This document shows positions 35,400 to 45,790 of a DNA stretch of 64,000 nt, piece after piece. Position 1 is the first letter of the stretch, and each line of letters begins with the position of its first letter. The translations under genes and the position numbers were made by a program. The notes below the pieces were generated by a model. That model was not told the DNA's origin and ran no database searches. It saw nothing but the letters and a program-made list of their open reading frames with translations. Source of the stretch: Brachybacterium halotolerans (lineage in GTDB: Bacteria > Actinomycetota > Actinomycetes > Actinomycetales > Dermabacteraceae); the NCBI RefSeq assembly GCF_016623465.1, contig NZ_JAEDAJ010000005.1, forward strand, positions 132,381 to 196,380, written 5' to 3'.

Positions 35400-36461
35400 A
35401 TGTCCCATTCCCCGCGCCGTTCGATCATCGGCCGTCGTGCTCTCCTCGGCTCCGGTCTCGCGCTGCCCGCGCTCGCCCTGGCCGCCTGCTCCGGAACTGA
35501 CGCCGCCTCGGAAGCGGCGGGGGGAGGATCCGAGGCCTCGGACGCCGGCGGCGATTTCCCGCTGAGCGTCGAGCATGCCCTCGGCACCGCGGAGATCCCG
35601 ACCAAGCCCAGCAGCATCGCGTGCGTGAACTGGGGCAATCACGAGGTGCCGCTCGCCCTCGGCGTGGTGCCTGTCGGCATGGCCGCGGCGAACTTCGGCG
35701 ACGACGACGGCGACGGCGTGCTGCCCTGGGTGAGCGACAGGCTCGAGGAGCTGGGCGCCGAGACGCCGGTCCTGTTCGACGAGACCGACGGCATCGATTT
35801 CGAGGCGGTCGCGAACACCGAGCCCGACCTGATCCTGGCGACCTACTCGGGGCTCACCCAGGAGGACTACGACACGCTCAGCGAGATCGCACCGACCATC
35901 GCCTACCCGGAGGTCGCATGGGGCACTCCGTGGCGCGAGATGATCGAGTACAGCGCCAAGGGCATGGGCATGCAGACCGAGGGCGAGAAGCTCATCGCCG
36001 ACCTCGAGAAGGAGATCTCCGACGCGGTGGAGAAGCACTCCGGCGTCACGGGGAAGTCGGCCATGTTCCTCACGCATGTGGACACCTCGGACCTCAGCGT
36101 CGTGAACTTCTACACCGCCCATGACACGCGGCCGATGTTCTTCGAGGACCTGGGGATGTCCACGCCGAAGTCCATCGCCGGGGTCTCGGCGAAGACCGAC
36201 GAGTTCTCGGGCAGCGTGAGCGCGGAGAAGGCGGACGTGTTCGACGACGTCGACATCATCGTCACCTACGGCGACGAGAAGCTCGTGAAGACCCTGCAGG
36301 GCGATCCGGTGCTCTCGCAGATCCCCGCCGTGAAGAACGACGCGATCGTGGCCCTGCCCTCGGACGATCCGTTCGGCACCGCCGCGAACCCGACCCCGCT
36401 GTCGATCTCGTACGTGCTCGACCGGTACCTCGACGAGCTCGAGCAGGCCGCCGGGAAGTGA
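35400..36461 (+). CDS. Iron-siderophore ABC transporter substrate-binding lipoprotein
   Basis: 353 residues. The signal has a twin-arginine start (SIIGRRALLG) and lipobox LAAC with Cys at 31, so it is a membrane-anchored lipoprotein. An acidic Ser/Gly spacer precedes the FecB/FepB-type fold: ALGTAEIPTKPSSIACVNWG, PDLILATYSGLTQEDYDTLSEIAPT, and DVDIIVTYGDE. It binds a ferric siderophore outside the cell. ATG at 35400 has AAGGA upstream. First gene of a four-gene operon with overlapping junctions. Confidence 0.94.
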   Translation: MSHSPRRSIIGRRALLGSGLALPALALAACSGTDAASEAAGGGSEASDAGGDFPLSVEHALGTAEIPTKPSSIACVNWGNHEVPLALGVVPVGMAAANFGDDDGDGVLPWVSDRLEELGAETPVLFDETDGIDFEAVANTEPDLILATYSGLTQEDYDTLSEIAPTIAYPEVAWGTPWREMIEYSAKGMGMQTEGEKLIADLEKEISDAVEKHSGVTGKSAMFLTHVDTSDLSVVNFYTAHDTRPMFFEDLGMSTPKSIAGVSAKTDEFSGSVSAEKADVFDDVDIIVTYGDEKLVKTLQGDPVLSQIPAVKNDAIVALPSDDPFGTAANPTPLSISYVLDRYLDELEQAAGK

Positions 36462-37498
36462 CGGCGTCCTCGACGCTCGCCCCGCTCCGCCGGGGCCGGC
36501 GCACGCGCCTGCTGTGGCTGCTCGGGTGCCTGGCGCTGCTGGCCGCCCTCGCCCTGGCCTCCGTCGCCCTCGGGTCCAGGCAGGTCGGCCTCGAGGACAT
36601 CCTCTCGCCCCTGAGGGGGATGCCTGAGGGGTTCGACCAGGCCGCTGTCGCCAAGCGCATGCCGCGCACCGTGCTCGCGCTCGTCGGCGGGGCGGGGCTC
36701 GGCATCTCGGGGTGCATCATGCAGGGCGTCACCCGCAATCCGCTCGCCGACCCGGGCATCCTCGGCGTGAACACCGGCGCGACCCTCGCCGTGGTGATCG
36801 CCATGGCGGTCCTCGGACTCGGCAACGGCTCGGGGGATGCCCGCACCATGGTGTGGGTCGCGATCGCCGGGGCGGGCGCCACCGCCGTCGGGGTCTACGT
36901 CATCGGCTCCCTCGGGCAGGGCGGTGCCACGCCGCTCAAGCTCGCGCTCGCGGGCGCCGCGACCTCCGCCGCCCTCGGATCGCTGGTCACCGCGGTCGTC
37001 CTGCCCCGCGGGGACATCGCCGAATCCGCTCGGTCGTGGCAGATCGGCGGGGTGGGCGGCGCGACCTGGGCGACCCTCCATCAGATCTGGCCCTTCCTGC
37101 TCGTCGGGCTCGTGCTCGCACTCGTCACCGCGCGCGGACTGGACTCCCTCGCCCTCGGGGACGAGGTCGCGGCCGGCCTGGGCGAGCACGTGCTGGCGAC
37201 CCGACTGCTCGCCGCCCTGGGCGCGGTCCTCCTGTGCGGGGCCGTGACCGCCGCCTGCGGACCGATCGGGTTCGTCGGGCTGGTGGTCCCGCACGCGTGC
37301 CGCCTGCTCGTCGGTGTCGGGCATCGTCCCCTGATGGTGTTCAGCGGTGTCGTGGGTGCGTGTCTGCTGCTCGCCTCGGACGTGCTGGGGCGGCTGATCG
37401 CACGCCCCGAGGAACTCGACGTCGGCATCGTCACGGCGCTGCTGGGAGCCCCCTTCTTCATCGCCATCGTGCGGCGTCAGAAGGTGAAGGCACTGTGA
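36458..37498 (+). CDS. Iron-siderophore ABC transporter permease (FepD-like)
   Basis: 346 residues, FecCD family with about ten helices. Signatures are RMPRTVLALVGGAGLGISG, MQGVTRNPLADPGILGVNTGA and FVGLVVPHACRLLVGVGHR, ending EELDVGIVTALLGAPFF. It forms one half of the heterodimeric channel with the following gene. GTG at 36458 overlaps the stop of the lipoprotein gene (GTGA), so translation is coupled. Confidence 0.94.
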   Translation: MTASSTLAPLRRGRRTRLLWLLGCLALLAALALASVALGSRQVGLEDILSPLRGMPEGFDQAAVAKRMPRTVLALVGGAGLGISGCIMQGVTRNPLADPGILGVNTGATLAVVIAMAVLGLGNGSGDARTMVWVAIAGAGATAVGVYVIGSLGQGGATPLKLALAGAATSAALGSLVTAVVLPRGDIAESARSWQIGGVGGATWATLHQIWPFLLVGLVLALVTARGLDSLALGDEVAAGLGEHVLATRLLAALGAVLLCGAVTAACGPIGFVGLVVPHACRLLVGVGHRPLMVFSGVVGACLLLASDVLGRLIARPEELDVGIVTALLGAPFFIAIVRRQKVKAL

Positions 37499-38553
37499 GC
37501 GCACAGCCCTCCTCGGCAACTCCGCCCTCGACGCTCGAGAGGGTGCGCACCGAGCGCCGCCGTCGCCGCGTGCGCCGCACAGTGACCGTGCTCGTGCTGG
37601 TCGTGCTGATCGCCGCCGGGTTCTACGCCTCCTTGGCGATCGGTCACCGCGTCTACTCGGCGGGGGAGATCTGGCGCGTGGTCCGCGGCCAGCAGGTCCC
37701 CGGCGCCTCCTTCACCGTCGGGACGCTGCGCCTGCCGCGCGCCGTTCTCGCGGTGCTCGTGGGCTGCTGCTTCGGACTCGGCGGCGTCACATTCCAGACG
37801 ATGCTCCGCAACCCGCTCGCGAGCCCGGACATCATCGGCATCAGCGCGGGCGCGTCCGCCGCGGCGGTCGTCGCCATCGTGCTGCTGGGACTCTCGGGCC
37901 CCGCGGTGTCCGTGATCGCGATCCTCGCAGGGCTCGCCGTGGCCCTCGCGATCTATCTGCTCTCGTATCGCAAGGGCGTGGCGGGCACGCGCCTGATCCT
38001 CGTCGGGATCGGCGTGGCCGCCATGCTCGACTCGGTGACCAGCTACGTGCTCTCCCGCGCGGCGCAGTGGGACCTTCAGGAGGCGATGCGCTGGCTCACG
38101 GGGAGCCTGAACGGCGCCGCCTGGGGCGATGTGCGTCCCGTCCTGGTCGCACTCCTCGTCGGTGGGCCTCTGCTCCTCGCCGCCTCCCGGGACCTGACCG
38201 TCTCCCAGCTCGGCGACGACTCCGCCGCGGCCCTCGGCGTGCGCGTCCAGCGGCTGCGGCTCGTGGTCGTGATCGCCGCGGTCGGCCTGGTCGCCTTCGC
38301 GACCGCCGCCACCGGTCCGATCGCCTTCGTGGCGTTCCTCGCCGGGCCGATCGCCGCCAGGATCGTCGGCCCCGGGGCCTCGCTCCTCGTGCCCTCCGCA
38401 CTGGTCGGCGCGCTGCTGGTCGTCGTCTCCGACCTCGTGGGGCAGTGGGCGATCGGCACCCGCTTCCCCGTCGGCGTGGTCACGGGCGTGCTCGGTGCTC
38501 CCTACCTCATCTATCTCGTCGTCCGCACCCAGCGCTCGGGCGGATCCCTATGA
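37495..38553 (+). CDS. Iron-siderophore ABC transporter permease (FepG-like)
   Basis: 352 residues, second FecCD permease. An Arg-rich N-terminal segment (RVRTERRRRRVRR) precedes the helices. Signatures are LRLPRAVLAVLVGCCFGLGG, QTMLRNPLASPDIIGISAGAS and AFVAFLAGPIAARIVGPG, ending FPVGVVTGVLGAPY. The GTG at 37495 overlaps the stop of the first permease (GTGA). An open frame reaching 36712 is a shadow of that gene. Confidence 0.93.
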   Translation: MSAQPSSATPPSTLERVRTERRRRRVRRTVTVLVLVVLIAAGFYASLAIGHRVYSAGEIWRVVRGQQVPGASFTVGTLRLPRAVLAVLVGCCFGLGGVTFQTMLRNPLASPDIIGISAGASAAAVVAIVLLGLSGPAVSVIAILAGLAVALAIYLLSYRKGVAGTRLILVGIGVAAMLDSVTSYVLSRAAQWDLQEAMRWLTGSLNGAAWGDVRPVLVALLVGGPLLLAASRDLTVSQLGDDSAAALGVRVQRLRLVVVIAAVGLVAFATAATGPIAFVAFLAGPIAARIVGPGASLLVPSALVGALLVVVSDLVGQWAIGTRFPVGVVTGVLGAPYLIYLVVRTQRSGGSL

Positions 38554-38611
38554 CGCCCGGTGCCGCCCCTCATCCCCGGCCCGCGCCCGTCCCGCCAGGA
38601 GGCATTCCACG

Positions 38612-39421
38612 ATGACCACGGACCACACCCTGGCCGCGAGCGGCCTCAGCGCCGGTTACGGGGACCGCAGTGTGATCGAGGGCCTCGACCTCGAGCTGGT
38701 GCCCGCGCGGATCACGGCGATCATCGGCGCCAACGCGTGCGGGAAGTCGACGCTGCTGCGCGTGCTCTCGCGTCTGCTGGCGCCGACGTCGGGCCAGGTG
38801 CTGCTCGACGGCACCCGGATCCACCGTCTGCCGGCCAAGCAGGTCGCGCGCACCCTGGGCCTGCTGCCTCAGTCGCCGATCGCGCCCGAGGGCATCACCG
38901 TCGCGGAGCTGGTCTCCCGGGGGCGGCACCCGCATCAGGGCCTGGTGGCGCGATGGTCCGCCGCTGATGACGAGGCCGTCGCGGAGGCGCTCGACGCGAC
39001 CGGGACCGCGGCCCTCGCCGAGCGTCCCGTGGACGAGCTCTCCGGCGGTCAGCGTCAGCGCGTGTGGATCGCGATGGCCCTGGCCCAGCGCACCGATCTG
39101 CTCCTGCTCGACGAGCCCACGACGTTCCTGGACGTGAACCATCAGGTCGAGGTGCTCGATCTGCTCACCGACCTCAACGCCCGCCGGGGCACCACGATCG
39201 TCATGGTCCTGCACGACCTGAACCTCGCCGCGAGGTACGCCGACCACCTGGTGCTGATGGAGCACGGGCGGATCCACGGCGCAGGCGCTCCCGGGGAGGT
39301 GTTCACCGCCGAGGCGGTGAGGACCGTGTTCGGCCTCGAGAACCGCGTGATCCGGGACCCCGTCTCCGGGAGCCCGATGATGCTGCCGATCGGCCGGCAT
39401 CATGGGGTCGCCGAGGACTGA
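38612..39421 (+). CDS. Iron-siderophore ABC transporter ATP-binding protein (FepC-like)
   Basis: 269 residues. Walker A is GANACGKST (family norm GPNACGKST), Q-loop LPQSPIAPEGITVAELVSRGRHPHQ, signature LSGGQRQRVWIAMAL, Walker B LLLLDEPTTFLDVNHQ and switch VLHDLNLAARY. It powers siderophore import by the two permeases. ATG at 38612 has AGGAGG nine bases upstream; the 58-base gap from the permease is the only non-overlapping junction in the operon. Confidence 0.94.
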   Translation: MTTDHTLAASGLSAGYGDRSVIEGLDLELVPARITAIIGANACGKSTLLRVLSRLLAPTSGQVLLDGTRIHRLPAKQVARTLGLLPQSPIAPEGITVAELVSRGRHPHQGLVARWSAADDEAVAEALDATGTAALAERPVDELSGGQRQRVWIAMALAQRTDLLLLDEPTTFLDVNHQVEVLDLLTDLNARRGTTIVMVLHDLNLAARYADHLVLMEHGRIHGAGAPGEVFTAEAVRTVFGLENRVIRDPVSGSPMMLPIGRHHGVAED

Positions 39422-39478: not shown

Positions 39479-41722
39479 TCACCATTCGAGGATGGACCAG
39501 CGCTTCTTCTTGGCGACCGAGTAGAGGCCCAGGTCCGGCGAGACGGCCGAGGGCGTGCCCACGAGCTCGAGCCAGGAGGCGTCGGCGTGGGAGTCGCCGT
39601 AGCCGTAGGACTTCTTGAGGTCGGCGCCGTGCTCGTCGGCGTACTTGCGCAGCCAGTTGGCGCGGGCCTCGTCGACCACCGGGGGAGTGGCGAGGTAGCC
39701 GCTCATCACGCCGTCGGAGGTGACATCCATGCGGGTGGCGACGATGTCGTCGAACAGACCGGCGAGCGGCTCGACGAGCACGTCGAGGGCGCCGGTGACC
39801 AGCACGGTACGGTGGCCCGCGCGGCGGTGCTGCTCGATGAGCTCAAGCGCCTCGGGGCGGATCGAGGAGCGGATCGAGCGGCCCAGGCTGCCGGAGAGCA
39901 GGTGCTCGAGCTCCTCGCGGCGGTAGCCCTTGTAGCGGCGGTTGACCAGGCGGATCAGCTCGGAGCGGTCGCGCTTCTCGGCCCGCAGGTAGGAGGGCAC
40001 CGAGCGCAGCAGGGAGCCGATCTCCCCGGGCCACGAGGTGGCCGGCCTGGTCGCGCGCACCACCGAGAGGTACTGCTGGATGATGTTCGCGCCCACCACT
40101 GTGCCGTCGAGGTCGAAGACGGCGAGGGCGTCGCTCGCCTCCTTCATCTCCGGCGCGGGACGGTTCTGGCGGGCGCGCACCGCGGCGCGGCCGCGCGAGT
40201 ACGCCTTGGTGAGCTCCGTGACGGCGGGCAGGTGGAGGTTGCGGAAGTAGTCGACCCAGTCCACCTTCGTGATGTCGAAGTCGTGGGTCGAGAGGAACTC
40301 CGCCGGCAGCTCCTCGCGCAGCGCGCGGGTGTTCGCATCGTCGAAGACCATCTCGGTCTTCGTGTACTGGCGGTAGAGCTCGATGTACTTGCGCAGCGTG
40401 GTCAGGCCCGAGGCGTTGCGGTGCAGGGTCGTCGTCCACTCGCGGGTGCGCCGGGTCGCGGGCAGGCGGGAGACGACGGTCTGACCGGCCTTGGTGGCGA
40501 TCTCCTTCATCCGGAAGCGCTGCTCGACGAGGTCGACGGACGGGAACGTCCAGTCGGGCACGACGATGTCCTTGCCGTCGTCGTCCTGCAGCGGGTGCTC
40601 GACGAAGTAGCCGCGCACGGCGTCGACCATCTCGTGGAAGGGCAGCGGGTTCGAGCCGCCCGAGGCGACCTGGAAGTAGGCGTCGTCGCCGCGGCGGGAG
40701 ACGTCCTGGGTCGCGAGCGCCACGATCACGTTGACCACGAAGTCGACGGGGATGATGTCGAGGATGGAGTCCGCGAGGCCCGGGAACTCGGGCAGCAGAC
40801 CGCGGCCGAAGGCCATGATCAGCGGGTCGGCGACCTTGTAGCCGTCGATCCAGCCGGGGTAGGGGCGCTGCAGCGCGGACTCGATGATCGAGGGGCGCAC
40901 GAAGGAGACGCGGTGGCCGGCGTCGGCCCACATCTCCTCGGCGACGCGTTCGGCCATCGCCTTGGTGAAGGTGTAGATGTCGGTCCAGCCGACGGACTGG
41001 GCGCGGGTGCGGCCGAAGTCGACGAGGCGCTCGTCGACCCACTGCTTGCGCGCCTCCTCGGCGGCGGCGGCGACGGCCTTGGGGCCCATGCGGCCGTCGC
41101 GCAGGCGGGCGATGCGCATCTGGGTGCGCAGGTTCTCGGGCCGACGGGACTCGGCCTCCACGCGCTGGCGGGCCGCCTGGGAGGCCTCGAACTCGGCCTT
41201 CCAGTCGACGCCGTGCTCGAGGCGGCCCTCGCGGCGCAGACCCTTGGAGATGCCGCCCACGTACGCGGTGGACACGTGGATGACGTGGGGGTCCTGGCCG
41301 GAGTCCAGGAGCGCCTGGTAGAGGTTGCGCGCGCCGCCGACGTTGGTGCGGAACGCATCGTCGATCGGCGGGTCGAAGGACACCGAGGACGCGGAGTGGA
41401 TGACCGTGTCGTAGCTCTTGTCGAGCGCCGGCATCGCGGTGAGGTCGCCCTCGAGCACGTCGACGCGCGAGTCGAAGGCCGCGCGCACGGTGTCCTTGCC
41501 CACGCGGTCGGCCCACGAGGAGAACACGGGCTTGCGCAGCAGGCCCTCGAGGCGCTTGCGGCCGGTCAGCGTCCCCTTCGCGCGCACGACGGCGGTCACG
41601 CGGACGTCGTCGGTGTACTCGAGGAGCGACTGCAGGACGGCCTGGCCGAGGAAGCCGGTGACACCGGTCAGCAGGATCTCGCTCGGGCCGGAGCGCTCGG
41701 GGGACGGGGTGGGGTTGGACAT
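39479..41722 (-). CDS. Fatty acyl-CoA reductase fused to a HAD-IB phosphatase
   Basis: 747 residues. Residues 15-380 are an extended SDR reductase of the fatty acyl-CoA reductase (FAR, Male_sterile/NAD_binding_4) type: cofactor loop TGVTGFLG at 19-26, IHSASSVSFDPPI, HVSTAYVGG, catalytic Tyr250-x3-Lys254 (YTFTK), VRPSIIESALQRPYPGWID and IIPVDFVVNVIVA. The middle is FAR_C-like. From about 530, DLDGTVVG begins a HAD-IB phosphatase with the later motif GYGDSHADASWLEL. FAR makes fatty alcohols from acyl-CoA; the HAD-IB part might dephosphorylate a lipid phosphate. The ATG at 41720-41722 has GAGGGA upstream. It diverges from SDR, PlsC and AGPS genes, suggesting alkyl-ether lipid synthesis. The reductase family call is firm; the pathway is inference. 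Confidence 0.9.
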   Translation of the reverse strand: MSNPTPSPERSGPSEILLTGVTGFLGQAVLQSLLEYTDDVRVTAVVRAKGTLTGRKRLEGLLRKPVFSSWADRVGKDTVRAAFDSRVDVLEGDLTAMPALDKSYDTVIHSASSVSFDPPIDDAFRTNVGGARNLYQALLDSGQDPHVIHVSTAYVGGISKGLRREGRLEHGVDWKAEFEASQAARQRVEAESRRPENLRTQMRIARLRDGRMGPKAVAAAAEEARKQWVDERLVDFGRTRAQSVGWTDIYTFTKAMAERVAEEMWADAGHRVSFVRPSIIESALQRPYPGWIDGYKVADPLIMAFGRGLLPEFPGLADSILDIIPVDFVVNVIVALATQDVSRRGDDAYFQVASGGSNPLPFHEMVDAVRGYFVEHPLQDDDGKDIVVPDWTFPSVDLVEQRFRMKEIATKAGQTVVSRLPATRRTREWTTTLHRNASGLTTLRKYIELYRQYTKTEMVFDDANTRALREELPAEFLSTHDFDITKVDWVDYFRNLHLPAVTELTKAYSRGRAAVRARQNRPAPEMKEASDALAVFDLDGTVVGANIIQQYLSVVRATRPATSWPGEIGSLLRSVPSYLRAEKRDRSELIRLVNRRYKGYRREELEHLLSGSLGRSIRSSIRPEALELIEQHRRAGHRTVLVTGALDVLVEPLAGLFDDIVATRMDVTSDGVMSGYLATPPVVDEARANWLRKYADEHGADLKKSYGYGDSHADASWLELVGTPSAVSPDLGLYSVAKKKRWSILEW

Positions 41723-41950
41723 GCGGTGTTCCCTCAGGTGCAGGTGGGCGGCCGACGTCCCGGCCGGGTGGGTCTCCCGGCCTCCGCCCGCCGGCGCGGC
41801 GGGCGTGCCCTACCGCGCAGGGGCGCGGGCGGACGTCGTGCACGGTCTCGTCCGACGGTAGCGCATGGGGCCTTCGACCACAGTTCGTCCGCGCTGGTGC
41901 GTGACGCGCACGACGGCCCGGACCCCCTCGGTGGGAGCACCTCGCCCATG

Positions 41951-41963
41951 TATCGTGGCCCGC
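41951..41963 (+). promoter_or_regulatory. Possible leaderless promoter of the SDR-PlsC-AGPS operon
   Basis: -10-like TATCGT (41951-41956) ends seven bases before the ATG at 41964, the spacing expected if transcription starts at the ATG. No ribosome site is visible, which fits a leaderless mRNA. The -35 is poor. Confidence 0.35.
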
Positions 41964-42743
41964 ATGCACAGGGCCCTTATCACCGGTGGGACCGCAGGCA
42001 TCGGAGCGGCGTTCGCCAGGGCCTTCGCCCGGCGCGGCGTGGCCCTGGTGCTCGTGGCCCGTGACGACGCGCGCCTCCAGCAGGCCGCCGCCGAGCTGCG
42101 CACGAGCCACGGCGTCGAGGTCGAGACCCTCGTCGCCGATCTGGCCGATCGGGACGACCAGCAGAAGGTCGCCGACAGGCTCGAATCGACCGACGCCCCC
42201 GCCATCGACGTGCTCGTGAACAACGCCGGGTTCTCCGTGCGCGCCTCGCTGCTCGATCCCGACCTGAGCGAGCACGACCGCGGCTTCGAGGTCATGCAGA
42301 GGGCCGTCCTCAAGCTCGGCGGCGCCGCCGGTCGCGCGATGAGCGCGCGCGGCGAGGGCTGGATCATCAACATCGCGTCCGTGAGCGCCTTCATCACGCA
42401 GAACAACTACACGGCCATCAAGGCCTGGGTGACCAACTACTCCGAGTCGCTGAGCGTGCAGCTCGAGGGCACGGGCGTGCAGTCCACGGCAGTCACCCCG
42501 GGCTGGGTGCGCACGGAGTTCCACCAGCGCGCCGGCATCCGCGGCTCCTCGATCCCCGGGTTCCTCTGGCTGGACGCCGACGACCTCGCCGAGCAGGGCC
42601 TGAAGGACGTCGCCAAGGGGAAGGCCGTGAGCATCCCCGGCGGCCGCTGGAAGCTCATCACCGCGCTGCTGCGCTCGCTGCCCCGCCCGCTCGTGCACCG
42701 CCTCAGCTCCCTGCTCAGCTCGCGGCGCAGCAAGGAGCGCTGA
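41964..42743 (+). CDS. Short-chain dehydrogenase/reductase, candidate acyl/alkyl-DHAP reductase
   Basis: 259 residues. Classical SDR: TGGTAGIG at 7-14 for NADP(H), NNAG at 86-89, catalytic Ser around 139-141, Tyr149-x3-Lys153 (YTAIK), then TPGWVRTEF. The C-terminal RSLPRPLVHRLSSLLSSRRSKER is basic and amphipathic, suiting membrane association. In animals the ether-lipid reductase (DHRS7B) is also an SDR; position before PlsC and AGPS suggests the same ketone reduction here. ATG at 41964 is used; GTG at 41955 is in frame. It begins a three-gene operon with junctions of 2 and -1 bases. Confidence 0.92.
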   Translation: MHRALITGGTAGIGAAFARAFARRGVALVLVARDDARLQQAAAELRTSHGVEVETLVADLADRDDQQKVADRLESTDAPAIDVLVNNAGFSVRASLLDPDLSEHDRGFEVMQRAVLKLGGAAGRAMSARGEGWIINIASVSAFITQNNYTAIKAWVTNYSESLSVQLEGTGVQSTAVTPGWVRTEFHQRAGIRGSSIPGFLWLDADDLAEQGLKDVAKGKAVSIPGGRWKLITALLRSLPRPLVHRLSSLLSSRRSKER

Positions 42744-42745
42744 GC

Positions 42746-43603
42746 ATGGCAGGCAACCAGCCGGAGAAGGCGGACGAGCCGACGAGGGCGGAGAAGCCCG
42801 CGAAGGCGGACAAGCACGCCAAGGCCGACAGGTCGGCGCAGAATCCGCGCCACGACCAGTCCGTCTCCTCGCGCCTGCGCAGCCTCGGCTGGGATCCTCT
42901 GGACGAGGACACCCGCAAGTACCGCTCGCGCGCCCGCGCGGCCCTGCGCTTCGTGCTCCAGCGCGGGCTGTTCCGCGGCCTGGTGCGAGCCAACGTCACC
43001 CAGACCGTGACGACCGCGCGCCGCGTGAAGGCGGTGCGCGGGCCGTTCGTCCTGGTCGCGAACCACACGAGTCACCTCGATGCTCCGATGCTCGCCGAGG
43101 GGCTGCCCTGGGCGCAGGCCCGCTACCTCTCCACGGGCGTGGCCGCGGACTACTTCTTCCACGTCTGGTACAAGCGTCTGTTCGTGCGCCTCCTGTTCAA
43201 CGCGTACCCGATCGATCGCGACGGCTCGCGCAAGAACTCCGGCTTCTCCCGGCGTCTGCTGCGCAGCGGCGTCCCGATCCTCGTGTTCCCCGAGGGCGGG
43301 CGGCAGAAGACCGGCACCATGGGGGAGTTCAAGCCGGGCGCCGCGGCGCTCGCCTCGAGCGTCGGCGTCCCGATCATCCCGGCCGCCCTCGTCGGCGGCT
43401 ACGAGGCGATGCCCAAGGGCCGCAGCTGGCCCAAGCCCGGTCGCCCGCCGGTCGGCGTCGTCTTCGGCGACCCGATGATGGCCCGCGACGGCGAATCCGT
43501 CGTCGACTACATGGAGCGTGTGCGCGCGGCCGTGGTCGACCTCTACGACACCAACTACGAGCAGATCCTGGGCCCCCGCACGGGACCCCGGGAGGAGCAC
43601 TGA
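42746..43603 (+). CDS. 1-acyl-glycerol-3-phosphate acyltransferase-like (PlsC family)
   Basis: 285 residues. A lysine/glutamate-rich N-terminal tail (about 1-40) precedes the LPLAT core: motif I NHTSHLD at 106-112 (His107-x4-Asp112), motif III FPEGG at 171-175, and VPIIPAALVGGYEAMPKG. It transfers a fatty acyl chain to a glycerol phosphate or, in this setting, perhaps to dihydroxyacetone phosphate, the GNPAT step of ether-lipid synthesis. ATG at 42746 follows the SDR stop by two bases, and its stop overlaps the AGPS start by one base. Confidence 0.92.
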   Translation: MAGNQPEKADEPTRAEKPAKADKHAKADRSAQNPRHDQSVSSRLRSLGWDPLDEDTRKYRSRARAALRFVLQRGLFRGLVRANVTQTVTTARRVKAVRGPFVLVANHTSHLDAPMLAEGLPWAQARYLSTGVAADYFFHVWYKRLFVRLLFNAYPIDRDGSRKNSGFSRRLLRSGVPILVFPEGGRQKTGTMGEFKPGAAALASSVGVPIIPAALVGGYEAMPKGRSWPKPGRPPVGVVFGDPMMARDGESVVDYMERVRAAVVDLYDTNYEQILGPRTGPREEH

Positions 43604-45327
43604 TGACCGCATCGCATTCCGCAGCCGATCTCACGGCGGCCGACGTCACCCGGCACAAGTGGTGGGGGTGGGGCATGGACGACGTCCGCTTCCGCTTCGA
43701 CAACAAGCCCGCGTTCGCGCCGCTCGCGAAGAACAAGATCGGCGTGGATCTCGAGGCGATCACCCAGTTCGACGATCCCGAGCTCGCCGATCACGAGGTG
43801 CCCGCGGGGCGTCTGGGCGACGCCGAGCGCGCAGCGATCGTGGGCCTCGTGGGCGAGGCGAACGTGCGCACGGACGACGAGTACCGGGTGCTGCACTCCT
43901 TCGGCCGCTCCCTGCCGGACCTGTTCCACGTGCGCTCGGGCGATTTCGACCGCCTCGTCGATGCCGTGGTCTATCCCGGTGGCGAGGAGGAGGTCGCGGG
44001 CCTTCTGCGCCTGGCGATCGAGAAGGACCTCGTGCTGATCCCCTACGGCGGCGGCTCCTGCATCTCCGGCTCGGTCACCCCCGACCCGGCCGAGCAGCGC
44101 CCCGTGATCACCGTGAACCTGGGCCGCATGCGCCAGGTGCTCTCGATCGACGACACTGCGGGACTCGCGACCGTGCAGGCCGGCGTCTACGGCCCCGACC
44201 TCGAGGAGCAGCTCGCCGCCGAGGGCTGGACGATGGGCCACTTCCCGGACTCCTTCACCTACTCGACGCTGGGCGGATGGGCCGCGACCCGCTCCTCGGG
44301 CATGCAGTCCGACAAGTACGGCGACATCGAGGACATCGTGCGCGGCATGCGCGTCGTGCACCCCGAGGGGACCGTCGTCACCAACCCGATCCCCGGCCGC
44401 GACTCCGGTCCGAGCGTCCACGAGATGATCCTGGGCTCCGAGGGCCGGATGGGCATCATCACCGAGCTCACCGTGCAGGTGCACCGCCTGCCGCAGGTGC
44501 GCCAGGTCATCGCCTACATGTACCCCGACTGGGAGCACGGCATCCGCGGCATGCATGCGATCGCCCGCTCGACCGACGTCTCGCCCACCTTCACCCGCCT
44601 CTCCGACGGCCCCGAGACCGAGTTCAGCCTCGCCATGGTCAAGGAGCCCACCTCGACCAAGGGCAGGGTCGCCGCGAAGGTGCAGGACGGCCTCTTCGCC
44701 TACCTGCGCTCCAAGGGCTGGGACACGAGCGAGGAGATGAGCATCTCCTACGTGTGCTTCGAGGGCACCAAGGAGACCGTCGAGCACCAGAAGTCCGTCG
44801 TGAAGAAGCTGGTCAAGGGCGCGGGCGGCATCACGCTGGGCGCCGGACCGGGTGCGATCTACGACCAGAAGAAGTTCGACACCCCCTACCTGCGCGACTT
44901 CCTGCTCAGCTACCAGGTGTTCGGCGACGTCTGCGACACCGGTGCGACGTGGTCGAACATCAACGAGGTCCACGCGAAGGTCTACGAGGCGTTCTACGAG
45001 GCGCAGCGGAAGCAGGGACTGCCCGGCTTCATGTTCTGCCACATGTCCCACAGCTACCACTCGGGCGCCTGCCTCTACTTCACCTTCGCCCTGAAGTACA
45101 CGAGCCCGGACAAGGCGCTCGAGCAGTACTACAACGCCAAGCGCGCCGTGCAGCAGGCCTTCGTGGACCTGGGCTCCACGGTCTCCCACCACCACGCCGT
45201 GGGCACCGAGCACCAGCCCTGGCTCACCGAGGACATCGGCGAGCTCGGCGAGCACATCATCGAGGGACTCTTCGCGCAGAACGATCCCGGCCGGAACCTC
45301 AACCCCGGCAAGGTCGTCACGCCCTGA
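43603..45327 (+). CDS. Alkyl-dihydroxyacetonephosphate synthase-like FAD enzyme (AGPS family)
   Basis: 574 residues, similar in length and motifs to the mature eukaryotic AGPS. The N terminus has the AGPS mark KWWGWGMDD. The FAD domain contains PYGGGSCISG at about 147-157 and ILGSEGRMGIITE at about 278. The C-terminal part carries HSGACLYFTFALKY, aligned with the AGPS DAGACIYFYFAF region holding the catalytic Tyr, and SHHHAVGTEHQPWL at about 529, the triple-His motif typical of AGPS. AGPS swaps the acyl chain of acyl-DHAP for a fatty alcohol, forming the ether bond; FAD makes a covalent intermediate rather than a net oxidation. Other FAD-linked oxidases (GlpD-like, D-lactate dehydrogenase) lack the HHH motif. 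The ATG overlaps the PlsC stop by one base. Enzyme family is strong; the pathway is inferred. Confidence 0.93.
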   Translation: MTASHSAADLTAADVTRHKWWGWGMDDVRFRFDNKPAFAPLAKNKIGVDLEAITQFDDPELADHEVPAGRLGDAERAAIVGLVGEANVRTDDEYRVLHSFGRSLPDLFHVRSGDFDRLVDAVVYPGGEEEVAGLLRLAIEKDLVLIPYGGGSCISGSVTPDPAEQRPVITVNLGRMRQVLSIDDTAGLATVQAGVYGPDLEEQLAAEGWTMGHFPDSFTYSTLGGWAATRSSGMQSDKYGDIEDIVRGMRVVHPEGTVVTNPIPGRDSGPSVHEMILGSEGRMGIITELTVQVHRLPQVRQVIAYMYPDWEHGIRGMHAIARSTDVSPTFTRLSDGPETEFSLAMVKEPTSTKGRVAAKVQDGLFAYLRSKGWDTSEEMSISYVCFEGTKETVEHQKSVVKKLVKGAGGITLGAGPGAIYDQKKFDTPYLRDFLLSYQVFGDVCDTGATWSNINEVHAKVYEAFYEAQRKQGLPGFMFCHMSHSYHSGACLYFTFALKYTSPDKALEQYYNAKRAVQQAFVDLGSTVSHHHAVGTEHQPWLTEDIGELGEHIIEGLFAQNDPGRNLNPGKVVTP

Positions 45328-45400: not shown

Positions 45401-45790
45401 ATGAGTGACGTGCGCCTTGCGCTCTCGTGCGGGCCCTCGCGAGCGCGCGACCTCCTGCTCTCGCAGCTGGTGGCCGACGGATGGCGCGTGCGCGACGGGT
45501 GGCGCGTGCGCGCCCGGCCCGACGACGACGTGCGGGCGCTCCTCCTCGAGCGCGGGTCCATCCGGCGCAACGTCCTGCTGGGAGGCCTCGCGGGACGCGG
45601 CCAGCACCTCGAGATGCGGATCGACGTGCGCTCTGACGAGCCGGGGAGCCTCGCCGTCTGCTCGTGGTCCGATGCGAGCCCGCGAGCGCTCGGCGGCGTC
45701 CTCGGTCAGCGCCGTGCCGAGCGCACCATGCGACGAACGGTGGCCGCCCTGCGCGGGTTCCTGGCCGACGAGGGGCTGTTGCGCACGTAG
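45401..45790 (+). CDS. Hypothetical protein
   Basis: 129 residues with normal codon use and a GGAAGGG site before ATG at 45401. No family recognised. Near residues 27-39 there is an internal repeat (DGWRVRDGWRVRAR), visible in the DNA as a tandem GGATGGCGCGTGCGCGAC-like duplication. No signal or membrane helix. Rich in Arg and Leu; it may be a small cytosolic protein. The 73-base gap after AGPS allows it to be the last gene of that operon, but nothing links it functionally. Confidence 0.6.
   Translation: MSDVRLALSCGPSRARDLLLSQLVADGWRVRDGWRVRARPDDDVRALLLERGSIRRNVLLGGLAGRGQHLEMRIDVRSDEPGSLAVCSWSDASPRALGGVLGQRRAERTMRRTVAALRGFLADEGLLRT

Follow-up and report, generated by a model that had tools for sequence, protein, structure and literature searches.

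A putative alkyl-ether glycerolipid gene cassette in Brachybacterium halotolerans and related Actinomycetota

Gene sets for ether lipids that include an alkyl-dihydroxyacetone phosphate synthase (AGPS) are already known from bacteria, and the systems considered here are compared as they are described in the respective sources. The MXAN_1676-1674 operon of Myxococcus xanthus encodes an AGPS and a fusion of a FAR1-like fatty acyl-CoA reductase (FAR) with a GNPAT-like acyltransferase; disruption of MXAN_1676 cuts ether lipids only slightly, the AGPS being minor beside the elb operon, and most steps of the myxobacterial ether-lipid pathway are uncharacterised (PMC9131029). The elb operon (elbA-E) includes the genes for ElbD, with FAR, acyl-CoA synthetase (ACS), acyl carrier protein (ACP) and AGPAT-like domains, and for ElbB, a HAD protein (PMC9131029). 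Here we examine a stretch of 64,000 nt (the window, from here on) from the 3.85 Mb genome of Brachybacterium halotolerans, assembled in 24 contigs. The window contains four neighbouring genes, for a FAR, a short-chain dehydrogenase/reductase (SDR), a PlsC-type acyltransferase and an AGPS homologue (Table 1), which we propose, with a probability of about 0.8 and on the basis of sequence comparisons, to be a dedicated, oxygen-compatible cassette for alkyl-ether glycerolipids operating via the acyl-dihydroxyacetone phosphate (acyl-DHAP) route.

Compared by description, MXAN_1676-1674 and the Brachybacterium genes both combine AGPS with an acyltransferase and with two reductases, one for fatty acyl-CoA and one that is NAD(P)-dependent. 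Both come from aerobes, with alkyl ethers as the product in the first case and as the predicted product in the second. However, the Brachybacterium reductase is fused to a HAD domain instead of an acyltransferase and PlsC is a separate protein; likewise, a classical SDR is the candidate for the ketone reductase, divergent transcription of the FAR gene is common, and the organisms are Actinomycetota. FAR, acyltransferase, HAD and NAD-dependent reductase functions are also clustered in the elb operon, although its five genes are described without an AGPS; additionally, the ElbD architecture does not occur here, because the Brachybacterium reductase is composed of FAR, Sterile and HAD domains and lacks acyl-CoA synthetase, ACP or acyltransferase domains. 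With the pathway of animals and slime moulds (FAR1, GNPAT, AGPS and acyl/alkyl-DHAP reductase) the cassette shares the AGPS residues and fold, the FAR domain pair and an SDR, whereas it differs in the PlsC-type acyltransferase, the HAD fusion, the clustering of the genes and the lack of a peroxisome. The anaerobic reduction of esters to ethers by plsA/plsR, and by Ger (PMC9702350, PMC11868695), is also bacterial and leads to alkyl or alkenyl ethers, but with different enzymes and chemistry; plsA/plsR are reported from several actinobacterial orders (PMC9702350). In Candidatus Promineifilum breve, FcrA is associated with AGPS (PMC11948995), which is a further case of a bacterial AGPS in the vicinity of a gene for a fatty acyl-CoA reductase; however, the two are nine genes apart and FcrA is another type of reductase, which a section heading of that report points to the HMG-CoA-reductase class.

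As for the organisms, Agps homologues occur in many bacterial metagenome-assembled genomes (MAGs) from the Black Sea, with Actinobacteria among the most abundant in suboxic water (PMC11868695). Alkyl-ether phosphatidylglycerol (PG) is reported for Cutibacterium (PMC11237483) and ether lipid classes are listed in a figure legend on the lipidome of Paenarthrobacter (PMC11719660), and a link to the four-gene cassette was not seen in the accessible text of either. The genus Brachybacterium respires oxygen, according to a report on B. equifaecis whose main text has no words starting with "ether" or "alkyl" (PMC10581053). We did not find a description of the four-gene set in the literature searched, most subscription journals lying outside that search. 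As far as searched, the cassette is thus new in its architecture and taxonomic setting.

Table 1. Features of the putative ether-lipid cassette, with positions in the window
Feature	Position	Strand	Length and remarks
Fatty acyl-CoA reductase (NAD_binding_4 + Sterile) with C-terminal HAD-IB fusion	39479..41722	-	747 aa; proposed fatty-alcohol maker
Fused HAD-IB domain (reductase aa 534-719)	39566..40123	-	motifs FDLDGT, VTGA and GDSHAD all intact here
Divergent reductase/SDR spacer	41723..41963	.	241 bases
Classical SDR	41964..42743	+	259 aa; proposed alkyl/acyl-DHAP reductase
PlsC-type acyltransferase	42746..43603	+	285 aa; proposed DHAP acyltransferase (or sn-2 acyltransferase for alkyl-G3P)
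AGPS (alkyl-DHAP synthase) homologue	43603..45327	+	574 aa; proposed ether-bond former

The open reading frames (ORFs) of the window reproduced the four genes with the coordinates, divergent spacer and junctions of the original prediction, which was made from the sequence alone; SDR and PlsC are separated by 2 bases, and PlsC and AGPS overlap by 1 base. The FAD enzyme encoded by the last gene contains the Pfam domains FAD_binding_4 (4e-35) and FAD-oxidase_C (2e-28), and all the NCBIfam models displayed for it were below their cut-offs. Its top matches among PDB sequences were the Dictyostelium ADPS (2uuu, 6.4e-102) and an AGPS chain that we take to be from guinea pig (4bby, 1.5e-81, plus entries 4bca and 4bc7), followed by a putative oxidoreductase (1.2e-18) and a D-lactate dehydrogenase (5e-18). 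Counting positions along the PDB alignment, residues R332, R431, Y492 and H529-H531 of the window protein align with guinea-pig R419, R515, Y578 and H615-617, which have catalytic roles in that enzyme; the Tyr578Phe and Arg419His mutant structures among the AGPS entries listed by Foldseek agree with these roles. The six positions were invariant across 13 aligned sequences. In a wider alignment, the reading at these positions is R R Y H H H in the window protein and in the two eukaryotic rows, as opposed to E E H G E H in a glycolate-oxidase-like paralogue from the same genome (L001). The AlphaFold model of the enzyme (mean pLDDT 76, pTM 0.78) retrieved AGPS chains as its first 37 Foldseek matches, with query TM scores of 0.64 to 0.83, and then D-lactate dehydrogenase. 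The enzyme had been predicted to be an AGPS, a proposal that loss of the catalytic residues together with clustering among D-lactate/glycolate dehydrogenases would have contradicted. We found neither: by sequence and by fold it is much closer to solved AGPS than to D-lactate, glycolate or 2-hydroxyglutarate dehydrogenases, the predicted structure has the AGPS fold, and the active-site Tyr, Arg and His residues are all retained. An identity as glycolate or D-lactate dehydrogenase is therefore ruled out by the sequence matches, the catalytic residues and the fold.

The three motifs on which the AGPS assignment had leaned, KWWGWG, GACLYFTFAL and the triple His of SHHH, are all present in the protein, the last two inside the segment aligned to solved AGPS and KWWGWG upstream of it. 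KWWGWG is not, however, specific to this enzyme, because 37 of the 49 rows for more distant AGPS-like proteins contain the same motif or a near variant; the remaining distant rows are gapped at this site, partly from trimming of the rows to the profile match.

These more distant proteins belong to a second AGPS-like family (L076-L113 and L165-L175; e.g., L095 and L099) that is common in Actinomycetota, being the type present in 57 of the 60 genomes with an AGPS-like match in a sample of the phylum, with up to 39% identity to the window protein. The R/R/Y/HHH set is kept in 46 of the 49 distant rows, the exceptions being L108 (second R) and L172 and L174 (middle H). Since these proteins keep the same residues without a cassette, the residues alone are no proof of the ether-lipid reaction, and what distinguishes the AGPS of the window is its gene company. 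Indeed, neither a reductase nor a PlsC gene was found near the distant AGPS type in any of the 49 neighbourhoods, several of them cut by contig ends, and a weak SDR match (41-77 bits) occurred near four of them.

The AGPS proteins from cassettes formed one group both in a quick tree (SH-aLRT 99) and in a more careful tree (support 100/100). The eukaryotic AGPS adjoined this group in both, with an SH-aLRT of 97 in the quick tree; in the careful tree, the support was weak (84/34 and 88/65) and the outgroup very long. Both trees omit four of the five paralogue rows; additionally, two long rows were removed for the careful tree and the remainder was thinned to 39 rows.

The SDR contains PF00106 (adh_short, 5e-36), and its catalytic Ser and the Tyr and Lys of YxxxK are present in all of 56 aligned rows. 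Its nearest NCBIfam model, among the best 25 of 216, was the mycolate reductase NF040690, which it matched with 158 bits where the cut-off is 380. Mycolate reductase reduces a keto-lipid, and one could thus envisage the FAD enzyme as an AGPS-like oxidoreductase for a different substrate, a keto- or hydroxy-lipid, and the SDR as a mycolate-reductase-like reductase of keto-lipids, with a product other than a glycerol ether. The frequency in Actinomycetota of AGPS-like proteins with the same residues, but without the cassette partners, is in line with this idea. Nevertheless, we deem it unlikely, because the recurrent partners, PlsC and a reductase for fatty acyl-CoA, match the synthesis of alkyl-DHAP step by step and because the cassette AGPS are nearest to the eukaryotic enzymes in both trees, if weakly supported in the careful tree.

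The FAR comprises PF07993 (NAD_binding_4, 1.6e-44), PF03015 (Sterile, 2.4e-9, with 37.7 bits against a cut-off of 35.4) and PF12710 (4e-33), and its HAD part exceeds the cut-off of the NCBIfam model TIGR01490 (HAD-IB). Its identity as a reductase, as originally proposed, held, although both the Sterile and the C-terminal HAD-IB domains had been overlooked. Its best solved relative is 7eoz, "Fatty acyl-CoA reductase" (5.5e-42, aa 12-503), and residues S151, Y250 and K254 occur in all of 65 aligned rows (the window, 50 reductases beside a cassette and 14 located elsewhere), so that the enzyme has the domain pair of FAR1 and its Ser/Tyr/Lys site. The genome of B. halotolerans yielded one clear FAR-type match (154.7 bits), the next one scoring 53.3 bits.

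The HAD domain was found in the four reductases scanned for domains (those of the window, L206, L199 and L148), and the alignment spans it in all 65 rows. The nucleophilic Asp of motif I is present in every row, whereas the second Asp, which acts as the general acid in HAD phosphatases, is D in 49 rows, E in 5, H in 6, Q in 1 and A in 4. The replacement of this residue in 16 of the 65 rows leaves a fixed phosphatase step without support; the domain may act as a phosphatase in Dermabacteraceae, but such an activity is unlikely to be a constant element of the pathway. The residue varies by family, as if some lineages had retained the phosphatase and others had lost it.

The PlsC-type protein is the weakest assignment of the cassette. 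It contains PF01553 (Acyltransferase, 7e-21), and the N, H and D of NHxxxxD and the F, P and E of FPEG are invariant in 55 rows. However, its nearest named model is an sn-2 acyltransferase, the 1-acylglycerol-3-phosphate acyltransferase TIGR00530, with 64 bits against a cut-off of 103. Likewise, its single PDB match is a 1-acyl-glycerol-3-phosphate (1-acyl-G3P) acyltransferase, and a GNPAT structure was not among the PDB matches. The genome encodes four PF01553 proteins, including that of the cassette. It is therefore possible, and we hold this tentatively as a variant that overlaps our proposal, that the ether-bond chemistry is the same but the roles are distributed otherwise: PlsC would be the sn-2 acyltransferase for 1-alkyl-G3P, DHAP would be acylated by another enzyme, and the HAD domain would remove the phosphate from ether phosphatidic acid, giving an ether diacylglycerol destined for neutral lipids or glycolipids. 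The intact HAD motifs of the window are compatible with this distribution, as is the presence of the HAD protein ElbB within the elb operon, as described for myxobacteria (PMC9131029). Conversely, the alteration of HAD motif I in a quarter of the reductase rows speaks against it, and the position of PlsC singles out neither acylation step, since the gene lies beside AGPS in one family (L160-L162) and beside the reductase in another.

A survey of gene neighbourhoods, as suggested with the original prediction, supports the linkage of the four genes. It included 35 named loci, from Brachybacterium, Dermabacter, Helcobacillus, Brevibacterium, one locus labelled Kocuria, and two MAGs labelled Streptomyces and Actinomycetales. 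The order reductase(-), SDR(+), PlsC(+), AGPS(+), with its divergence, is kept in 34 of them, and the sequence of the 35th (L039, the Actinomycetales MAG) starts within AGPS. The AGPS of the window is 97% identical to that of B. subflavum and 53% identical to that of the most distant named locus (L043).

Outside the family, we took 20 neighbourhoods from the 42 genomes of the order that have an AGPS of the type found in the window. All four genes were together in 12 of them, co-directional in seven and with a divergent reductase, as here, in five; the other eight comprised one locus with three genes at a contig end, four with AGPS and SDR, and three with AGPS and PlsC. Two loci from the phylum sample (L074 and L075) also had AGPS and PlsC. 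In a family with the AGPS and SDR arrangement (f87), the reductase gene was located elsewhere, next to a PlsC gene, in the four genomes examined (L199, L200, L201 and L212), two of which are those of the loci L150 and L159. In the three AGPS and PlsC genomes of another family (f81), the reductase gene was also elsewhere, without an adjoining PlsC (L202-L204).

Co-occurrence was examined in an even sample of 396 genomes of the order, with match thresholds of 1e-70 for AGPS-like proteins and of 1e-60 for the reductase. AGPS-like proteins were present in 101 genomes and were clearly split, with 74 showing at least 49% identity to the window protein (the window type) and 27 showing up to 38%; the reductase was matched in 84. 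Both the window-type AGPS and the reductase occurred in 74 genomes, the AGPS alone in none, the reductase alone in 10 and neither in 312 (Fisher P 8e-70, inflated by kinship). Excluding the family of B. halotolerans, the corresponding figures were 42, 0, 10 and 310 (P 9e-46, similarly inflated). Only two of the 27 genomes having just the distant AGPS type contained the reductase. In the genomes with the reductase alone (7 of the 10 were sampled), a PlsC gene lay within about 3.5 kb of it in four of seven neighbourhoods. All four cassette proteins come from large superfamilies, and a FAD oxidase, an SDR, a PlsC and a reductase of generic kinds might in principle have become neighbours by chance. 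However, chance clustering is excluded by the arrangement in 34 of 35 loci, by the reshuffled orders in other families and by the co-occurrence in 74 of 74 genomes, and we assign it hardly any probability.

Of the 47 genomes of the family, 44 have the window-type AGPS, and the 38 that belong to the genus are all among them. In the phylum sample, also of 396 genomes, 60 had an AGPS-like match of any type and three had the window type (B. halotolerans, G338 and G381). Distribution across the order is patchy: in one genus (g246), a single genome (G615) has both the window-type AGPS and the reductase, and the 12 others listed have neither, 11 of these having the distant AGPS type only; likewise, in one family (f5) two genomes have both (G482 and G524) and six (G225, G268, G645, G712, G756 and G774) are without a window-type AGPS or a reductase match. 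The cassette had been regarded as not a standard feature of actinobacteria, which is too strong in view of its frequency in the family and in the order (74 of 396 genomes), and because AGPS homologues in actinobacterial MAGs have been published (PMC11868695). The cassette is, in fact, widespread rather than exceptional.

Searches for alternative routes were run on the genome of B. halotolerans and on other genomes. WS/DGAT was not found in this genome or in three others with the window-type AGPS (G640, G450 and G464), and the comparison genomes G096, G038 and G128 gave 11, 10 and 4 matches, respectively; wax-ester synthesis by WS/DGAT is therefore rejected as an outlet for the fatty alcohol. 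PF09989, which we take to be a marker of the PlsA of anaerobes, was not found in the genome or in three relatives (0/4), with 4 of 14 controls positive, and we thus discard a route of the plsA/Ger type in B. halotolerans. PF10520 (CarF/PEDS1, for aerobic plasmalogen synthesis) had no matches in seven genomes, or in the control genomes.

PlsY (PF02660) was not found in five genomes (B. halotolerans, G640, G450, G464 and G417), as opposed to 8 of 14 controls. The first acylation of glycerol in these five genomes is thus probably carried out by an enzyme other than PlsY, which makes an entry via acyl-DHAP at least plausible. Such an entry could also feed ordinary ester phospholipids, with the SDR as an acyl-DHAP reductase yielding lysophosphatidate, and the AGPS homologue and the reductase serving another, minor end. 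We nonetheless consider this quite improbable: it leaves the strict pairing of AGPS and reductase (74 of 74) unexplained, and a cassette whose AGPS type is found in just 74 of the 396 genomes sampled from the order cannot serve as the general phospholipid route.

According to our proposal of a dedicated ether-lipid cassette, the reductase would convert a long acyl-CoA to a fatty alcohol and the PlsC-type enzyme would form acyl-DHAP by acylating dihydroxyacetone phosphate. Using FAD, the AGPS homologue would then exchange the acyl group for the fatty alcohol, producing 1-O-alkyl-DHAP, whose ketone would be reduced by the SDR. The most likely product, as predicted from the gene families, is therefore 1-O-alkyl-glycerol-3-phosphate, made from acyl-DHAP and fatty alcohol. 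Acylation at sn-2, by the PlsC of the cassette or by another PlsC of the genome, would give an ether phosphatidic acid and, from it, phospholipids or glycolipids. The sequences show the gene families, the residues and fold of AGPS, and that the genes are linked and co-occur, whereas the substrates, the order of the steps, the final lipid and any contribution of the HAD domain are inferred. The description of the cassette as complete, in the original prediction, is likewise an inference, and PlsC may act on DHAP or be the second acyltransferase.

Several observations weigh against this proposal. The SDR and the PlsC are below the cut-off of every specific model displayed, and 10 of the 84 genomes with the reductase lack the window-type AGPS. 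Also, the reductase is apart from AGPS in two families, and we found no record of ether lipids for Brachybacterium in the literature searched. To these should be added the retention of the AGPS residues in the distant family and the variable general acid of the HAD domain.

Routine analysis of fatty acid methyl esters is blind to ether chains. We can conceive, at somewhat less than even odds, that Dermabacteraceae and scattered lineages of the order make 1-O-alkyl glycerolipids constitutively in aerobic membranes, via the acyl-DHAP route of animal type, and that these lipids have been missed by such analyses. The fusion of reductase and HAD would then be a lineage-specific coupling, with HAD as an active phosphatase in some families, leading from the ether lipid to diacylglycerol, and as a non-phosphatase in others. 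In any case, the cassette predicts alkyl-ether lipids in the 44 of 47 family genomes that carry the window-type AGPS and in scattered relatives. As a compact gene set in cultivable, oxygen-respiring bacteria, it makes the DHAP route to ether lipids addressable gene by gene, and it bears on lipid biomarkers, on chemotaxonomy built on ester-linked fatty acids, and on the origin of the eukaryotic AGPS pathway, which the trees shown here do not settle.

Directly 3' of AGPS there is a gene, not counted as part of the cassette, for a small protein without a Pfam family (45401-45790, + strand), with relatives (35-56% identical) downstream in 12 of the 35 named loci, all of them labelled Brachybacterium, and in none of the Dermabacter, Helcobacillus or Brevibacterium loci; six relatives have ORFs between AGPS and the small downstream gene. 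Further downstream are tandem duplicate esterase genes (PF00756; 45823-46944 and 47031-48332, both on the - strand), whose products are 54% identical. On the other side, beside the reductase gene, are siderophore-type ABC uptake genes (35400-39421, + strand), coding for a binding protein, two FecCD permeases and an ATPase.

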